A DNA stretch of 64,000 nt from Nitrosarchaeum sp. (GCA_021414365.1 JAIOOR010000005.1:1-64000), one strand, 5' to 3'; positions 3,743-11,072 are shown, counted from the stretch's first letter. A program made the numbers and translations. The notes: a model not told the origin generated them from the sequence alone.

Positions 3743-4717
3743 TTACCAGTCTTGATATTCATCGTCAGATAGAACCACACCCCATCCTCGCTCATTCAAT
3801 TTATTGTGAGTATCACCAGTAACACAAATTGATTTTATAAATTCCATAGGCTTTAACATTAGTCTCAAACCATCATTGCATTGAACCATATGTGGTTCAA
3901 CACCAATTTTTGTTTGTAATAATGGCGATATGTATCTTGAATCGTTTCCCCAAATTGAACCACAGAATTCATTTCCACTCAAATAGATAGTTCCAATCAT
4001 CTCAATTTTGTTATATCCTGATGGAAGATCCATTTTGAAACTTTGTGTAGTTGAATTTTCAATAAAATCGAAATCTATCTCCTCACCATTATTTAGCACA
4101 AAAAATTCACTAGATTTACAGTTGTAAAACAGAGCATCCATTGCTTTATTTGAAATATGGATTTCTACTGGTCCTCCAATATGTTTTTGCAGTAACATTT
4201 CGATGGAATTATCAACATCAGATTTACAAAAATATGGTTTTGATTCTCCATTAGATACAAAATCTAGTTGTATGGGATTGCAATTTTTTGTGTAAAAGTC
4301 TTCAATTTTTTTATTATCTAGTTTTATCAAATTAATTATTTCACCAAAATTCATTATAGAATTTTTGACGGTGACATCAATTATTCCATTATTGAATGAA
4401 TAATGATAAGAATATGGTCTATAACATCCATTTTCGTTTTGATTAAACTTTATTAGTAAAACTTCTTTTTCGTTGGTTTTTTCTACTGTAAAACTTAACT
4501 CGCCGTTTATTGGGTTTGTATCCTCCATTGCAGCATATCTTGTTGCATTAGGATATTTTTCGATAAATGTTCTTGCTGCAATGTCTTTTTCAAATATTTT
4601 CTCAAGTGGAGTTGACGAGTCTCCAAAGTTGCAATTAACTAGACTTTGTGCAAATATGGTTGTAGGCATTGTAATTGAGACTATCAATAAGATGAAGAAT
4701 GAAAGGCGGAGTTTCAT
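3743..4717 (-). CDS. Exported protein of unknown function
   Basis: The open frame starts at 4783, but a clear signal peptide begins at the internal ATG 4717 (MKLRLSFFILLIVSI..., cleavage near TIFAQ), so I prefer that start (324 aa). The mature part is beta-rich with about eight cysteines, consistent with a disulfide-stabilised surface or periplasm-like protein. No catalytic motif recognised. It lies 69 bp downstream of the beta-propeller gene on the same strand, so could be co-transcribed, but the repeat at 4742-4780 may be its own promoter. Confidence 0.65.
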   Translation of the reverse strand: MKLRLSFFILLIVSITMPTTIFAQSLVNCNFGDSSTPLEKIFEKDIAARTFIEKYPNATRYAAMEDTNPINGELSFTVEKTNEKEVLLIKFNQNENGCYRPYSYHYSFNNGIIDVTVKNSIMNFGEIINLIKLDNKKIEDFYTKNCNPIQLDFVSNGESKPYFCKSDVDNSIEMLLQKHIGGPVEIHISNKAMDALFYNCKSSEFFVLNNGEEIDFDFIENSTTQSFKMDLPSGYNKIEMIGTIYLSGNEFCGSIWGNDSRYISPLLQTKIGVEPHMVQCNDGLRLMLKPMEFIKSICVTGDTHNKLNERGWGVVLSDDEYQDW

Positions 4718-4741
4718 TATTTGATACAGGAGTAATGAGAA

Positions 4742-4780
4742 GTTCATAAAGTGTTCTAGCCTTTTATTCTCTTCATCAAA
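4742..4780 (-). repeat. Direct repeat copy 2 (39 bp), candidate promoter of the 3743-4717 gene
   Basis: Partner of 3694-3732 (34/39 identical). It contains AATAAAAGG in sense orientation about 40 bp before the ATG at 4717, a plausible BRE/TATA region. The repeat overlaps the N-terminal extension of the long open frame, another reason to doubt the 4783 start. Confidence 0.5.
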
Positions 4781-4786
4781 CACAAA

Positions 4787-7120
4787 TCATCTAACAAATG
4801 GAATGATGTTTCCAGTTTGCTGAATTTTGATAGAGTTAATCTCATCAAGTGTATCAATGTCGTTAATCTTCATGCTCCCATCCATCACAGTGTATAGAGA
4901 ATCATTAATGTAAAATGATCTTGGCTGCATGTACTGACTGTTATAGTTGTACTGCCACTGGTAATGAAGAATTTGTCCTTTCTCTTCAAATCCACTAGAA
5001 TCTACTGAATACACGTAAAATCCATACCATTGTTTGTTATAGTCTTCACTGACAATCTTGTTTTGTGGTTTTATTGATGCCATGTCAGTCTTTATTGGAA
5101 TGGAGATTATTCCCTTACCTTTATCCAACAAAAGGGCCTTGTGGCTATCTAATGCATCAGAATGTGTTCCAGTTCCACCAATCACAATAGTATCAGTTTC
5201 TTTTGGTTTGTTAAAATCAGATACATCAAACATGGATATCTTTACTCCTTTCTGTTCTACTCCACCCCATGAATTTTCTTTTGTGTCCCTACCAATTCCA
5301 ATGATATGATTTTCATCATATGGTTGTAGATAGTTTGAAAATCCAGGAATCTTTAGCTCACCTAGTATCTTTGGATTATTTGACGATAAGTCAATTACAA
5401 AAAATGGATCCACTTGCTTGAAGGTTACAAGATATAGCTTGTCTCCCATGAATCTTGCAGAATAGATTCGCTCTTCAGGTGCAATCTTTTCTAGTTTGCC
5501 CACAATTTTGAGTGATTCATCAAGAACATAGACATTATTTGATAATATGGTTTGACGCGGCCCATATGATTCGCTGGTAGTAGCTATTCTAAAAAATCCA
5601 GAATGTTCATCCATTGAAAATTGGTTTAGAGGATAACCAGAAACATCATTATTTGCAACGTATTTCAGATTACCACTATCTAGTGCAATCTTGTGAATTA
5701 TAGTTCTTCTTGTGTCATTTTGGAATTTGGAGTCATATTCTGCTATTGCGTCTTGCATCTTTGAGAATAGTTTGTCTTTTTCTTCTTTTGGCATGGCATT
5801 ATAGGTGTCTTGTAATACCTTTGATACCTGTCTCCATTTTTCTCTAGAATCAAGGGTGGAATCACTTTGGATGGATTTTATTTTGTCTTGTGTGTCTTTT
5901 GGCAATAGAGGAACAATAACATCAAAGAATCGTTCTTTTTGTATTAAATCATAATCAGTTGGTGCGATATTTTTTTCATATGTGATGTAAAGATTTTCTT
6001 CTGAAACATAGATGGAGTTAGAATAACCCATCATGAATGTCTCTGAATTTATCAGATTACCTGAAACATCAACTGCAGTAACAGTGTTAAAGTTGTAACC
6101 CTGTTCTGGATTTGGGAATCTATACACATCAGGATAAATCACTTTATCTTCAGACATTATTGTTGGAATTATCAAATTAGAGTAATCAATACCGCTTGAT
6201 GAAAGAACATAAACTGTATCTCCAATCATTCTTGAATTGTAATAATTTCCATCAACTTCATGTGTTGAAATTACTTTGGGAGATGTTTTATCAGACACAT
6301 CTAATATCGATATGATTGTCTTTGAGTTGTAAATTGGATATGGCTTGAAATCAAATTCAGAAATCGCTTGACTCTCAGAGGTGCCATGATACATTAGCAC
6401 AAGACGATCACCATTTAGAAACATGTTTTCAATGTTTTGCTGATCAATATCCACTGCAAACCTTAGAATCACCTTGGCAGATTCTGGAGGGTATGCATCA
6501 ATTATTGATATGGTGTTCTGGGTTCCAATGTAGACATATTTTCCGTCAGTTTTGAGATAGTCTGGCTCATCTACATTTTTGACCTGGACATTTGTAGTGG
6601 AATAGTCTGATCTACTGTTTAGATTAACATCCGCATCACCTAATTGTACATGTACTTCCTCACCTGAATTCCACTCGGATCCAAAAGGCGTTGGATATAC
6701 GGATCTATCCGAACTTACAGAGCCGCCATGTGTGGGCATTTCAGGTCTAGGCATTTTCATCGATTCTGGTTCCGGAACTGGTGCCATCAAATCCATATCG
6801 GGACTGTGGACAAAATTGTATTGTTGCTGTGTTTTTTGGGATTGTTTTAGAAATTCTGTTATTTCTTTTGCTGATTCAAATTTTACTGGTTCATTTGATA
6901 AGATGGATGCTTTTGGAAATATTGTCAAATCAAAAACTTCTTTGCTAAATTGATATGGAAATTTTGATGGGGCCTGCATAGTTTTGATATTATTTTGTTC
7001 TTGAACAGAGACTGGCACATTTTGTTTTACTTGTGGTGTTATGTTGATAGAGTAGTACATTCCCAATCCACCAATAACAATAATTGCAATCAGCGCAGAA
7101 GATAAAATAATTTTATTCAA
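4787..7120 (-). CDS. Membrane-anchored beta-propeller protein (COG4880-like)
   Basis: 777 residues. An N-terminal transmembrane anchor (about 5-25) is followed by a Pro/Glu/Met-rich linker (about 105-150) and a long series of beta-propeller blades with repeated aliphatic-D-(V/I)-S-D/G strands, the pattern of the archaeal 'secreted protein with C-terminal beta-propeller' family. These are extracellular or anchored scaffolds of unknown ligand. The linker contains DRSVYPTPFG followed by WNSGEE (residues 138-154), both also found in the divergent regulator at 7696-8484. It follows the exported protein 7164-7595 by 43 bp and is probably co-transcribed with it. Confidence 0.85.
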   Translation of the reverse strand: MNKIILSSALIAIIVIGGLGMYYSINITPQVKQNVPVSVQEQNNIKTMQAPSKFPYQFSKEVFDLTIFPKASILSNEPVKFESAKEITEFLKQSQKTQQQYNFVHSPDMDLMAPVPEPESMKMPRPEMPTHGGSVSSDRSVYPTPFGSEWNSGEEVHVQLGDADVNLNSRSDYSTTNVQVKNVDEPDYLKTDGKYVYIGTQNTISIIDAYPPESAKVILRFAVDIDQQNIENMFLNGDRLVLMYHGTSESQAISEFDFKPYPIYNSKTIISILDVSDKTSPKVISTHEVDGNYYNSRMIGDTVYVLSSSGIDYSNLIIPTIMSEDKVIYPDVYRFPNPEQGYNFNTVTAVDVSGNLINSETFMMGYSNSIYVSEENLYITYEKNIAPTDYDLIQKERFFDVIVPLLPKDTQDKIKSIQSDSTLDSREKWRQVSKVLQDTYNAMPKEEKDKLFSKMQDAIAEYDSKFQNDTRRTIIHKIALDSGNLKYVANNDVSGYPLNQFSMDEHSGFFRIATTSESYGPRQTILSNNVYVLDESLKIVGKLEKIAPEERIYSARFMGDKLYLVTFKQVDPFFVIDLSSNNPKILGELKIPGFSNYLQPYDENHIIGIGRDTKENSWGGVEQKGVKISMFDVSDFNKPKETDTIVIGGTGTHSDALDSHKALLLDKGKGIISIPIKTDMASIKPQNKIVSEDYNKQWYGFYVYSVDSSGFEEKGQILHYQWQYNYNSQYMQPRSFYINDSLYTVMDGSMKINDIDTLDEINSIKIQQTGNIIPFVR

Positions 7121-7163
7121 ATGTAAAACCTCGGCTAATCTTTTTAATGTTCATGATTTTATC

Positions 7164-7595
7164 CTATATGTTTTGTTTTGTCACGTCAATAGTTATTGTT
7201 CCAGGAGTTTGCCTTTCTAAAAGAGAATCAACATAATTTGAATCAAGATCTACAACTTTGAATATCTTTACCGTGTAATCCCCTTCAAATATTTTGGTTG
7301 TCTTGTTATCAGTTACATCCAGCACTCGAAATCTGTACTGGTATGTTCCATCATCACTTACTGGAACCTGTGCAAAATGAACTGGCTTGTCATCTTTGTA
7401 TATCTGAATTATTACAGGATAATCTTTTACTTGACTTGTTATCTTTCCTTCAACAAAACCCCATGGAATATGATTATCAGAAGGAATTGACATTTGTATT
7501 GTGGTTTCTTCTAATACAGATGTATCGTCTGCAAATGACTGGATTGGTATTATAGAGAATATCGTTAGAAGCGAAATTACAAAGATTGATTTCAT
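7164..7595 (-). CDS. Small exported beta-sandwich-like protein
   Basis: 143 residues with a textbook signal peptide (residues 1-22, cleavage after QSFA). The mature part alternates beta strands (VIIQIYKDDKPVHFAQV, YQYRFRVLD, YTVKIFKV), the look of Ig-like or carboxypeptidase-regulatory-like domains common in thaumarchaeal surface proteins. It is the first gene of a pair with the beta-propeller gene and is divergent from the regulator at 7696, with about 100 bp between them for shared control. Confidence 0.7.
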   Translation of the reverse strand: MKSIFVISLLTIFSIIPIQSFADDTSVLEETTIQMSIPSDNHIPWGFVEGKITSQVKDYPVIIQIYKDDKPVHFAQVPVSDDGTYQYRFRVLDVTDNKTTKIFEGDYTVKIFKVVDLDSNYVDSLLERQTPGTITIDVTKQNI

Positions 7596-7695
7596 TTATG
7601 AATCATAAAACAGGTGTACATAAAACCTTTGATTAAAACTAGATTATACCTAAAAATCACAAAAGATATCTTTCACATATGTTCAAAACTATATC

Positions 7696-8484
7696 ATGAT
7701 AAATGACAATCATGAATCTACGGATAACTCTAAAACAAAACCGGGTGAATCAATAAAGGTAATGTCAGTTGATGATCAAAAGATAAAGATAGTAGGCGAG
7801 GTATTGTCAAATGATTCAAGCAGGGCAATCCTAAAGATACTTGCAGACAGAGAAATGTCTGCAAATCAGATATCACAAGACGCCAATTTGTCTATTGCCC
7901 TTGTTGCGTTTCACCTAAAAAAGATGCAAGATGTCGGGATAATCAAGATAACAAAGACAGGCAAATCTGTAAAGGGGCAAGATGTAAAATATTACTCTGC
8001 AACAAATCAGTCTTTTCTTATCACTCCTGCAAGACACACTGAATCTATTTTGGACTCTGTGAAAAGATATTCAAGATTTGCGGCAATAGGTATCGCGGGA
8101 TTGGTATCATGGGTAATTCTAAGAAAAGATGTTGGAACATGGAATTCTGGGGAAGAGATTCCAATGACAATATCTGATTCAGATACAGTGATAAAAGAAC
8201 CTAGACCCACACTTCCACCTAGTGATTTTATGCATGGTGAAGATTCAAGTAATCTTCCTGAACCTAGTCCAGAACCAACGCATTCAGGTGTGCAAGACTA
8301 TAATCTTCAATTAAGTGATCCTGATACGATACAACTTGATAGGACAGTGTATCCAGTACCGTTTGGCACATCTGTCGAATCAATAGAGCCAATCATTTTA
8401 TCACTGCTGATTCCAATTGCAGTAATCATATCTGGAGTAATCATTGATAGAGTGATTAGTAGATGGATGATTAAAAGAAAATAA
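7696..8484 (+). CDS. Membrane-bound winged-helix regulator with two TM helices
   Basis: 262 residues. An ArsR/MarR-like winged helix (about 35-105) has recognition-helix pattern SANQISQDANLSIALVAFHL. A first TM helix lies around 120-136, an extracytoplasmic loop of about 95 residues follows, and a second TM helix lies around 235-253 with a basic tail. The loop carries WNSGEE and DRTVYPVPFG, near matches to the linker of the adjacent beta-propeller protein. Divergent placement and shared motifs suggest that it senses or regulates that surface protein system (inference). Confidence 0.8.
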   Translation: MINDNHESTDNSKTKPGESIKVMSVDDQKIKIVGEVLSNDSSRAILKILADREMSANQISQDANLSIALVAFHLKKMQDVGIIKITKTGKSVKGQDVKYYSATNQSFLITPARHTESILDSVKRYSRFAAIGIAGLVSWVILRKDVGTWNSGEEIPMTISDSDTVIKEPRPTLPPSDFMHGEDSSNLPEPSPEPTHSGVQDYNLQLSDPDTIQLDRTVYPVPFGTSVESIEPIILSLLIPIAVIISGVIIDRVISRWMIKRK

Positions 8485-9218: not shown

Positions 9219-10019
9219 ATGGCAAAGCGTTACCATTCCCCCATAACTTATCGATTAAAAGAAATTCCAACAAAATACATCAAAGTATGGAAAGATGCAC
9301 AGGCAAGAAAACTAGACAGGGAAGGAATTGCAGAACTTGCACGTTCCATCAAGACAGAGGGACTACAAAATCCGCCAATGGTCCAAAGAGAGTCAAAAAA
9401 TTCATATCTTTTGATGTCTGGTCAGAGAAGACTTGCGGCACTCAAGAGACTAGGTGCAAAAAAGATACCCGTATTGTTACTTACTCAAAGCACAAAATAC
9501 AATTTGGATGACGCAAAGGCAGCGTCAGTAATTGAGAATCTTCACCGAACCAAGATGAATGCAAAGGATATGACATCTGCTTGTGTCTTTTTGGCCAAAT
9601 CAGTGGGCAAAAGCAAGGCAGCTCAATCCCTTGGAATATCACAGCAAACCCTCAAAAAATATCTGGGATTTGCAGCAGTACCTGATAAATTAAAAGAATA
9701 CGTCCCAAAGATTTCTCGTGATGATGCAACCAAACTATATCAAATCATTCCAAATGTATCTCAGGCAGTACGAGTTGCAGAAAAGATCATTCCACTTGAT
9801 GCAAGGCTTCGCAAGCAATATCTACGGAATTTGGCAAAAAGCCCAAGATCATCTCATCTCAAGATACTCAAAAACGCAAAAACTGGATTGTTACAGAAAA
9901 AAGTTACACTAGATCTTAACAAGGGCAATGCAAGAAAACTACATATCCTAGCTGCAAAAAAGGATTTGGATGTAACAGATATGGCAGAGAAGATAGTGTC
10001 GGATTATTTGAAAAGATAA
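9219..10019 (+). CDS. parB: ParB/Spo0J-like partition protein (copy 1)
   Basis: 266 residues. The N-terminal ParB/Srx nuclease-like domain shows the family motifs GLQNPPMV and LLMSGQRRLAALKRLG (GxRRxxA box, about residues 50-80), followed by ENLHRTKMNAKD and a helix-turn-helix with KAAQSLGISQQTLKKYLG (about 128-146). ParB binds a centromere site and CTP in characterised relatives. Directly downstream lies an iteron array, a natural candidate target. A close paralogue is encoded at 33073-33879. Confidence 0.9.
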   Translation: MAKRYHSPITYRLKEIPTKYIKVWKDAQARKLDREGIAELARSIKTEGLQNPPMVQRESKNSYLLMSGQRRLAALKRLGAKKIPVLLLTQSTKYNLDDAKAASVIENLHRTKMNAKDMTSACVFLAKSVGKSKAAQSLGISQQTLKKYLGFAAVPDKLKEYVPKISRDDATKLYQIIPNVSQAVRVAEKIIPLDARLRKQYLRNLAKSPRSSHLKILKNAKTGLLQKKVTLDLNKGNARKLHILAAKKDLDVTDMAEKIVSDYLKR

Positions 10020-10224
10020 ATTAATTTTAAAATTGTTTGTATTTTGGTTATAATGTCCTCGATGCGTTTGAAATGTGAGTCTGTATGGATTCGCACTGTT
10101 TTTTCTAAAATTACAATATTCTTTGTCCGGGTTGAATTCATCTATTAGGTATGGTTAACCATTAAGATCACTATAATTCCTCTAGTAATAAACCGCTGGA
10201 AAAATACTCCCAGTCTAAATAGTC

Positions 10225-10373
10225 TGAAATTAATATGAAATTAATACTTTGAAATTAATACTTTGAAATTAATACTTTGAAATTAATACTTTGAAATTAA
10301 TACTTTGAAATTAATACTTTGAAATTAATACTTTGAAATTAATACTTTGAAATTAATACTTTGAAATTAAAAC
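10225..10373. repeat. Iteron array: 11 copies of a 14-bp unit
   Basis: The core GAAATTAAT recurs eleven times. Copies 2 to 11 are spaced exactly 14 bp apart (unit GAAATTAATACTTT), the first pair 11 bp apart. Sequence between copies is invariant except at the last (TAAAAC), indicating recent or selected homogeneity. The array starts about 205 bp after the parB stop codon. Confidence 0.9.
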
Positions 10374-10399
10374 TGACGTAATGGGGGGCGTACGTGAGA

Positions 10400-10545
10400 C
10401 GGTATGATGGTATGATATAATGGTATTATGATATAATGATATGATTTTAACTGGTATTGTGGTATAATGATGGTATGATTTAATTTCAACTGATGGTATG
10501 ATTTAATTTCAACAGGTATTATGATATAATGATATTATGACGGGG
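10400..10545. repeat. Tandem and dispersed direct repeats (22 bp and 20 bp)
   Basis: Two adjacent copies of a 22-bp unit beginning GATGGTATGATTTAATTT lie near 10470-10515, flanked by two copies of GGTATTATGATATAATGATA near 10421 and 10516. The units share GGTAT-ATGAT elements with each other. They extend the iteron-type region and contain several TATAAT-like AT-rich cores. Confidence 0.7.
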
Positions 10546-10706
10546 CATGCTTTAAATCTAAAATTAAAAATGAATCTCAAAGGTAGCAGAAAAAAGATAA
10601 ATTTACGGTAGCAGAAAATTAAAAGACGAGAGAAAAATTAATTTAGTTAAATTAAAGTGGACGGTTGCAGAAAATAATGACTGTGACGAATTCGCAATTG
10701 ATGAAT

Positions 10707-11072
10707 TTAGTGTTTTTCTGGCTTGATCATTATGCTGTCTTTGTGGCAAAAGATGTCAAGTGATTCATTTGATAAAGAGAGCAACTTTATGAATCTAATT
10801 GGAACTGTTATTTTTGCGGAATAGTACTTTTGGTTCCTGTACGTCTTTGTCAGTCTCAGTCTTATTTTGACTGGCACCGAGTCTTTGGATGCTTTTGCGT
10901 GCAATCTGATGGTTCGGGTCTTCTCTGAGGCGGTTCCGTAAAGTATCGCGGCATCTTTTAGTTTGAGATCTGTTGCTACTGTGTATGGTATGGTGATATT
11001 GTATGAATCGTGTCTTTGTATGCCGTAAATTTCTTTTTTGGTCCTTGAGATACATTGCAGTCTTGGCATCAT
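10707..11072 (-). CDS. AbrB/SpoVT-like small DNA-binding protein
   Basis: About 120 residues (two adjacent Met codons at the start). It shows two segments with the swapped-hairpin pattern: YNITIPYTVATDLKLKDAAI near the N-terminus and YYSAKITVPIRFIKLLSLS near the C-terminus, each ending in a short strand. This resembles AbrB-family transcription or antitoxin folds, often duplicated in archaea. It borders the iteron region, so could regulate replication or partition genes. The start overlaps the upstream frame's stop (ATGA). Confidence 0.55.
   Translation of the reverse strand: MMPRLQCISRTKKEIYGIQRHDSYNITIPYTVATDLKLKDAAILYGTASEKTRTIRLHAKASKDSVPVKIRLRLTKTYRNQKYYSAKITVPIRFIKLLSLSNESLDIFCHKDSIMIKPEKH

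Follow-up and report, generated by a model that had tools for sequence, protein, structure and literature searches.

ToxR/CadC-type regulators combine a cytoplasmic winged helix, a membrane segment and an extracytoplasmic part, and are encoded next to a divergent target operon. In the DegS/RseA/sigma-E pathway, peptide motifs of outer-membrane proteins report the state of the envelope to a membrane-bound regulator. We know of no earlier description of a regulator whose ectodomain mimics the S-layer, and the literature that we searched contained none. Searches on archaeal S-layer sensors, membrane winged-helix regulators and COG4880/PF09826 returned nothing on point, and the literature searched held no account of archaeal monitoring of S-layer supply or integrity.

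Here we describe such a candidate from a stretch of 64,000 nucleotides (the window, meaning the whole of the DNA analysed), whose host is a Nitrosarchaeum-like member of the Nitrosopumilaceae. In these archaea the S-layer serves as the main envelope and enriches ammonium at the surface of the cell (PMC11153153); its protein in Nitrosopumilus maritimus, NmSLP (Nmar_1547, PDB 8c8k-8c8r), has ten Ig-like domains (PMC11153153). A membrane winged-helix regulator and a beta-propeller protein encoded in the window have motifs in common with NmSLP but, unlike it, hold only pieces of 10-35 residues and no whole domain. The layout of the locus is like that of the ToxR/CadC type, although here the DNA-binding domain is an ArsR-like helix-turn-helix (HTH), there are two membrane segments, and a disordered loop with S-layer segments stands in place of a folded sensor domain. 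The likeness to DegS/RseA/sigma-E is conceptual only and implies no homology; in this locus the copied peptides are part of the regulator, and neither a protease nor a sigma factor is apparent.

Layout of the divergent locus

The regulator is a protein of 262 aa (7696..8484, plus strand) that consists of an ArsR-like HTH, a marginal first membrane segment (TM1), the loop with the S-layer segments, a strong second membrane segment (TM2) and a K/R-rich tail, as read from Pfam profiles (HTH_5, 5.9e-07; HTH_20, 9.2e-07), hydropathy and charge. Its closest named relative, at 92% identity, is from Nitrosarchaeum sp. GW199_bin.3. The winged-helix DNA-binding domain (aa 37-92; 7804..7971, plus strand) is defined by profile matches, reaching 29.7 bits for HTH_5 against a cut-off of 22, while the protein falls below the NCBIfam metalloregulator cut-off (NF033788, 33.4 bits vs 55); it is a winged-helix regulator that is not filed as an ArsR/SmtB metalloregulator. 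One chain contains both this domain and a strong membrane-spanning segment, TM2 (aa 232-250; 8389..8445, plus strand; Kyte-Doolittle 2.76). TM1 (aa 128-146) is hydropathically marginal, at 1.45 or below. The loop between them has 0-3 K/R before the motif, and both membrane flanks are basic, a charge bias consistent with a loop that is predicted to be extracytoplasmic; it would be cytoplasmic if the marginal TM1 does not span the membrane. A PEFG-CTERM or archaeosortase sorting signal at the C-terminus was considered and discarded, no NCBIfam profile matching there.

On the minus strand, a secreted protein of 143 aa (7164..7595), for which a profile search gave no family above the cut-off, is followed by a membrane-anchored beta-propeller of 777 aa (4787..7120; PF09826 Beta_propel, 1.1e-151; also modelled with AlphaFold) and by an exported protein with a WING-49 domain (3743..4783; NF058652, 2.9e-13). 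These apparently form a three-gene operon, divergent from the regulator across a gap of 100 bp. The earlier note omitted the secreted-protein gene; because this gene lies between propeller and regulator, it is the one directly divergent from the regulator, and the propeller gene comes second. A gene resembling it also adjoins the related regulator of genome G048.

The propeller begins with a membrane anchor or signal (aa 4-22; 7055..7111, minus strand; Kyte-Doolittle 2.32), and its PF09826 domain (aa 173-758; 4847..6604, minus strand) matches the profile over its full length (1-495 of 495; 506.6 bits against a cut-off of 22.4). No function is defined here for this family. The stretch with the S-layer segments, the N-terminal linker, is not part of the Pfam domain. 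In the AlphaFold model the domain is folded and aa 100-179 are disordered (pLDDT <50); by this model the segments are exposed on a flexible stalk that joins the membrane anchor to the propeller. That the linker docks on its own propeller is unsupported, the same residues being left at pLDDT <50. A fold search with the propeller was uninformative, its top PDB matches being multi-propeller proteins such as DDB1 at TM-scores of about 0.16-0.26, and an AlphaFold model of an S-layer fragment was left out as too poor (mean pLDDT 45).

Between the two operons lies a conserved 31-bp element, ACCTTTGATTAAAACTAGATTATACCTAAAA (7625..7655, plus strand), a candidate operator or promoter of both. It is conserved upstream of every regulator in the clade to which the window's regulator belongs, with 0-8 mismatches to the consensus ACCTTTGATTAAATCTAGATTTTACCTAAAA, and is the sole site in the window genome at up to three mismatches; some paralogous regulators have related, more symmetrical upstream sites. 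The element may be a promoter, an operator or both, and local control of the two divergent operons by it would be the simplest reading.

Segments of the S-layer protein in regulator and propeller

The earlier note drew attention to motifs common to the two proteins. In the propeller, DRSVYPTPFG (aa 138-147; nt 6680-6709) is followed by WNSGEE (aa 150-155; nt 6656-6673), both on the minus strand; in the regulator, WNSGEE (aa 149-154; nt 8140-8157) precedes DRTVYPVPFG (aa 215-224; nt 8338-8367), both on the plus strand. The positions were as the note gave them, as were the 60-residue spacing in the regulator and the Pro/Glu-rich stretches in both loops; its description of the motifs as exact holds for WNSGEE, which is identical in both proteins, and is slightly overstated for DR[T/S]VYP[V/T]PFG, which matches at 8 of 10 residues. 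This sharing is not due to chance: the local alignment scores 71, against a mean of 30.7 and a maximum of 60 in 3000 shuffles, and neither an exact shared 6-mer nor an 8/10 match arose in any of 1000 shuffles. Where the two window genes encode the same residue, one of five codons is identical in WNSGEE and four of eight in DR[T/S]VYP[V/T]PFG.

The source of the motifs became apparent from a pattern scan of 250 family genomes, which found the motif in 102 and returned 0 for a reversed-pattern control. Nearly all motif loci read encode one very large Ig-like protein (...DFRDASGEIIEVGDSAGVRANTGSVSLDRTVYPVPFG...), which is the NmSLP-type S-layer protein. Almost all DR[TS]VYPxP matches examined in these genomes belong to S-layer proteins; the remainder consists of the regulators and propellers described here and four WING-49 exported proteins, so the motif is not common in unrelated proteins. 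The earlier note had proposed that regulator and propeller share a partner or that one mimics the other in a surface-sensing circuit; it pointed in the right direction, but the template is the S-layer protein, and the idea that the two proteins mimic each other was dropped in favour of a common S-layer origin once the census had shown the motif in this protein at about 100 loci. Two WING-49 proteins with the motif had also raised the idea of a generic linker of exported proteins, which the census rejects as a general rule.

Searches of 177,635 PDB sequences point to the same template. With a 43-residue piece of the propeller linker, NmSLP ranks first (E=1.4e-7, the next match at E=0.86) and aligns over stretches 459-490 and 1013-1035; with the regulator loop, it again ranks first (E=0.0012, next E=1), through partial alignments at 467-483, 817-835 and 1013-1033 that follow one another in the loop as they do in the S-layer protein. 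Specific NmSLP segments are thereby found in both proteins. In the regulator these are WNSGEEIPMTISDSD (8140..8184, plus strand), corresponding by alignment to about NmSLP 467-483; PEPTHSGVQ (8269..8295, plus strand), corresponding to EEAPSHSGVVS at about 817-835 and weak when taken alone; and DRTVYPVPFG (8338..8367, plus strand), corresponding to 1019-1028, which lies 8 residues before TM2 here and 8-13 residues before it across the regulators. In the propeller linker they are THGGSVSSDRSVYPTPFG (6680..6733, minus strand; NmSLP 1013-1028) and EWNSGEEVHVQLGDADVNLNSRSD (6605..6676, minus strand; NmSLP 467-490). Judged from these comparisons, WNSGEE and DRxVYPxPFG are both signatures of the S-layer protein, with P[ST]HSG a weaker third. 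The copied stretches, around NmSLP 467-490, 823-828 and 1012-1028, apparently each lie at the start of an Ig-like domain, a placement read from sequence and from the domain description in PMC11153153 and not from structural measurement.

In the window's own assembly the S-layer gene was not found, only shorter homologues (mostly at 36-43% identity), which is probably an assembly gap; the window was therefore compared with the S-layer protein of a relative. A search of the window genome with that protein recovered the window's propeller linker (E=8e-4). In the closest relative, G402, the S-layer protein of 1730 residues contains all the pieces, DEWNSGEEIPITLVDGDANRNSRSDEDLD, DAGTHSGVVSLD and RANTGSVSFDRTVYPVPFG; the propeller has SEWNSGEEVPVQLGDPDVNLNSRSDYS, and the regulator has TWNSGEEIPMIISDSD ... 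PEPSHSGVQ ... QLDRTVYPVPFG. An example from the nearest relative is EWNSGEEIPITLVDGDANRNSRSD in the S-layer protein against EWNSGEEVPVQLGDPDVNLNSRSD in the propeller. Regulator orthologues elsewhere have NTGSVSLDRTVYPxPF in the same loop, and the adjoining propellers have the same stretch; at one locus in genome G243 the regulator reads RANTGSVSLDRTVYPEP and the propeller RANTGSVSLDRTVFPMP.

When each protein was aligned to the S-layer protein of its own genome and scored against shuffles, z was 5.5-9.2 for eight regulators and 4.9-14.4 for six propellers with the segments (tagged propellers); five untagged propellers scored about 0. All regulators of the window clade reach z of at least 4.9, and all paralogues tested stay at or below 1.8, including two loci (L027 and L023) that show PTHSGVE or NSGEEI by eye yet fail the alignment test. 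High background scores in long ORFs came, on inspection, from genuine homologues of the S-layer protein or from Ig-like alignments that are long and weak, and not from compact segments. Neither regulator nor propeller has whole tandem Ig-like domains, only short pieces in disordered stretches, and the two are not themselves S-layer proteins. Mimicry of S-layer segments by both is well supported by this body of comparison.

A possible S-layer-coupled module

The motifs are conserved in orthologous pairs: all five of the other divergent regulator/propeller loci of the clade have S-layer segments in both partners. In a tree of the propeller domains, from which the linker was left out, monophyly of the tagged propellers is rejected (p-AU 3e-6), and at least four label changes are required. 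Six tagged propellers, which is most of them, adjoin a regulator of the window clade, and where an untagged propeller has an adjacent regulator, that regulator is a paralogue without S-layer segments. Independent contrasts gave three cases in which the clade regulator goes with the tag, none against and one equal (sign test p=0.25, n=4 being too few for significance). There are exceptions on both sides: the propellers of G003 and G025 are tagged with no clade regulator adjacent, and the regulators of G061, G062, G088 and G048 are tagged with no propeller adjacent.

Our preferred reading, to which we give a little less than an even chance, is that regulator and propeller form an S-layer-coupled module, in which an S-layer-mimicking transmembrane one-component regulator controls the operon of the tagged propeller. 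The module would serve in sensing, or docking to, S-layer subunits or a factor that handles them. The regulator would be a one-component transcription factor that spans the membrane and binds the single element between the operons; the S-layer segments would be decoy copies of binding sites, through which regulator and propeller could both bind whatever binds the S-layer protein there. Such a partner would most likely be exported, unassembled S-layer subunits, engaged by edge-strand pairing, or else a membrane-proximal handling factor. Fixed at 8-13 residues from the membrane, the main segment would read subunits passing the membrane surface and not the distant lattice, and it is this proximity that favours sensing at the membrane surface over lattice binding. 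What follows sensing is conjecture: occupancy might alter DNA binding at 7625-7655 and thereby how far the operon is expressed, whose three products (secreted protein, tagged propeller and WING-49 protein) might assist S-layer handling or repair.

We rank three rivals to this reading, of which attachment comes first, shared client sites second and neutral relics third. The segments might be attachment tags that intercalate in the S-layer lattice or among stacked Ig-like domains and hold surface proteins in place, the regulator being tethered only. This would suit the disordered, exposed linker of the propeller, the propellers that carry the segment away from any clade regulator, and the four WING-49 exported proteins that carry it without a regulatory domain. 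We nevertheless consider it unlikely, as the regulator's main segment, so near the membrane, has little reach towards a canopy, it is not obvious why a transcription factor should be tethered, and most exported proteins lack the tag.

Alternatively, the segments could be client sites that an S-layer enzyme or chaperone (a protease, a prolyl isomerase, or a glycosylation or folding factor) recognises in all these proteins, with the regulator either sensing free activity by competition or being cut. Several segments contain Pro and sit where a domain apparently begins; more than one kind of segment has been kept in both proteins, as would be expected for a factor scanning the S-layer chain; and N. 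maritimus is described as having a membrane-associated parvulin (PMC4922055). No candidate factor was identified here, and we hold this account to be quite unlikely.

Segment copies in two neighbouring surface proteins suggest a circuit that senses or engages the cell's own coat. If the mimicry is functional, S-layer sensing could be tested directly with what the S-layer-coupled module would provide: a named sensor, a target operon, a candidate operator and three short peptides. A propeller family that has drawn little notice would then also stand out as possibly accessory to the S-layer. More speculatively, and we would call this doubtful, ammonia-oxidising archaea may have a dedicated S-layer surveillance, with a transmembrane transcription factor that senses supply or assembly of the S-layer protein through an ectodomain that is a collage of S-layer pieces, and a tagged propeller as assembly or quality-control factor, a self-mimicking counterpart of the bacterial envelope-stress response.

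Conservation and age of the segments

The window clade comprises ten regulators from nine genomes; the nearest is 92% identical to the window's and the others 42-52%. Seven of the nine ectodomain columns that do not vary among the ten are those of DRTVYP and F, the rest of the loop being hardly alignable. Where the third segment and the S-layer gene encode the same residue, the codon is identical in about a third to a half of cases, and nucleotide identity is 61-85%. These values and the differing codons rule out recent gene conversion or DNA copying from the S-layer gene, so the segments appear to be old or conserved at the protein level.

The third rival, that low-complexity linkers took up functionless fragments of the S-layer gene by recombination, is improbable: fast-evolving, Pro/Glu-rich linkers, local exchange between the two genes and a variable segment order in the propeller speak for it, but it sits poorly with conservation of the protein sequence despite codons diverged from the S-layer gene, with a motif invariant inside a hardly alignable loop, with the recurrence of the tag in separate propeller clades and with its absence from all paralogous regulators tested.

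The exchange itself is seen in G243 and G123, where the regulator and propeller copies have 10 of 14 and 9 of 13 codons in common, more than either has with the S-layer gene, which points to local exchange between the two genes. Where several segments are visible in a regulator, the S-layer order is kept; in the propeller, segment order differs between lineages.

Segments shared among exported proteins, propellers and regulators

Exported proteins of the WING-49 type, the type encoded by the third gene of the window's propeller operon, can carry an S-layer segment, (S/T)(L/I)DRTVYP(V/I)P(F/W), which lies shortly ahead of the WING-49-like stretch. Such proteins are encoded at loci L042 (4911-6740, reverse strand, and 9623-10846, forward strand), L193 (544-1998, reverse) and L200 (199-2709, reverse); in genome G061 a tagged regulator has two of them, one on each side. 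A second stretch, LEEALELQ(K/R)R...GSGTPI, is not S-layer, and is common to propeller linkers (L047, L048) and regulator loops (L058, L059, L062, L072) across different genera.

S-layer-like proteins in genome G000

No canonical S-layer gene was found among the sequences of the G000 assembly. On its contig C15, L117 (2264-5434, forward) encodes a 1057-residue homologue of the N-terminal half of the S-layer protein, with a different C-terminus. Contig C21 encodes a 941-residue protein (L118, 3557-6379, forward) that by eye appears to be an odd fusion, in which S-layer-like Ig domains seemingly stand between an N-terminus resembling a proteasome or Ntn-hydrolase-type domain and a C-terminus that is cupredoxin-like.

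Intergenic elements

Between the divergent genes of the window lies a perfect 12-bp palindrome, AAAGATATCTTT (7662-7673), which is kept in the nearest relative, G402, and not in the other regulator/propeller pairs. A long inverted repeat, CTTTGATTAAA...TTTAATCAAAG, stands upstream of the propellers at L049 and L050; because it is related to the window's intergenic element at 7625-7655, it suggests that these membrane regulators have a family operator.
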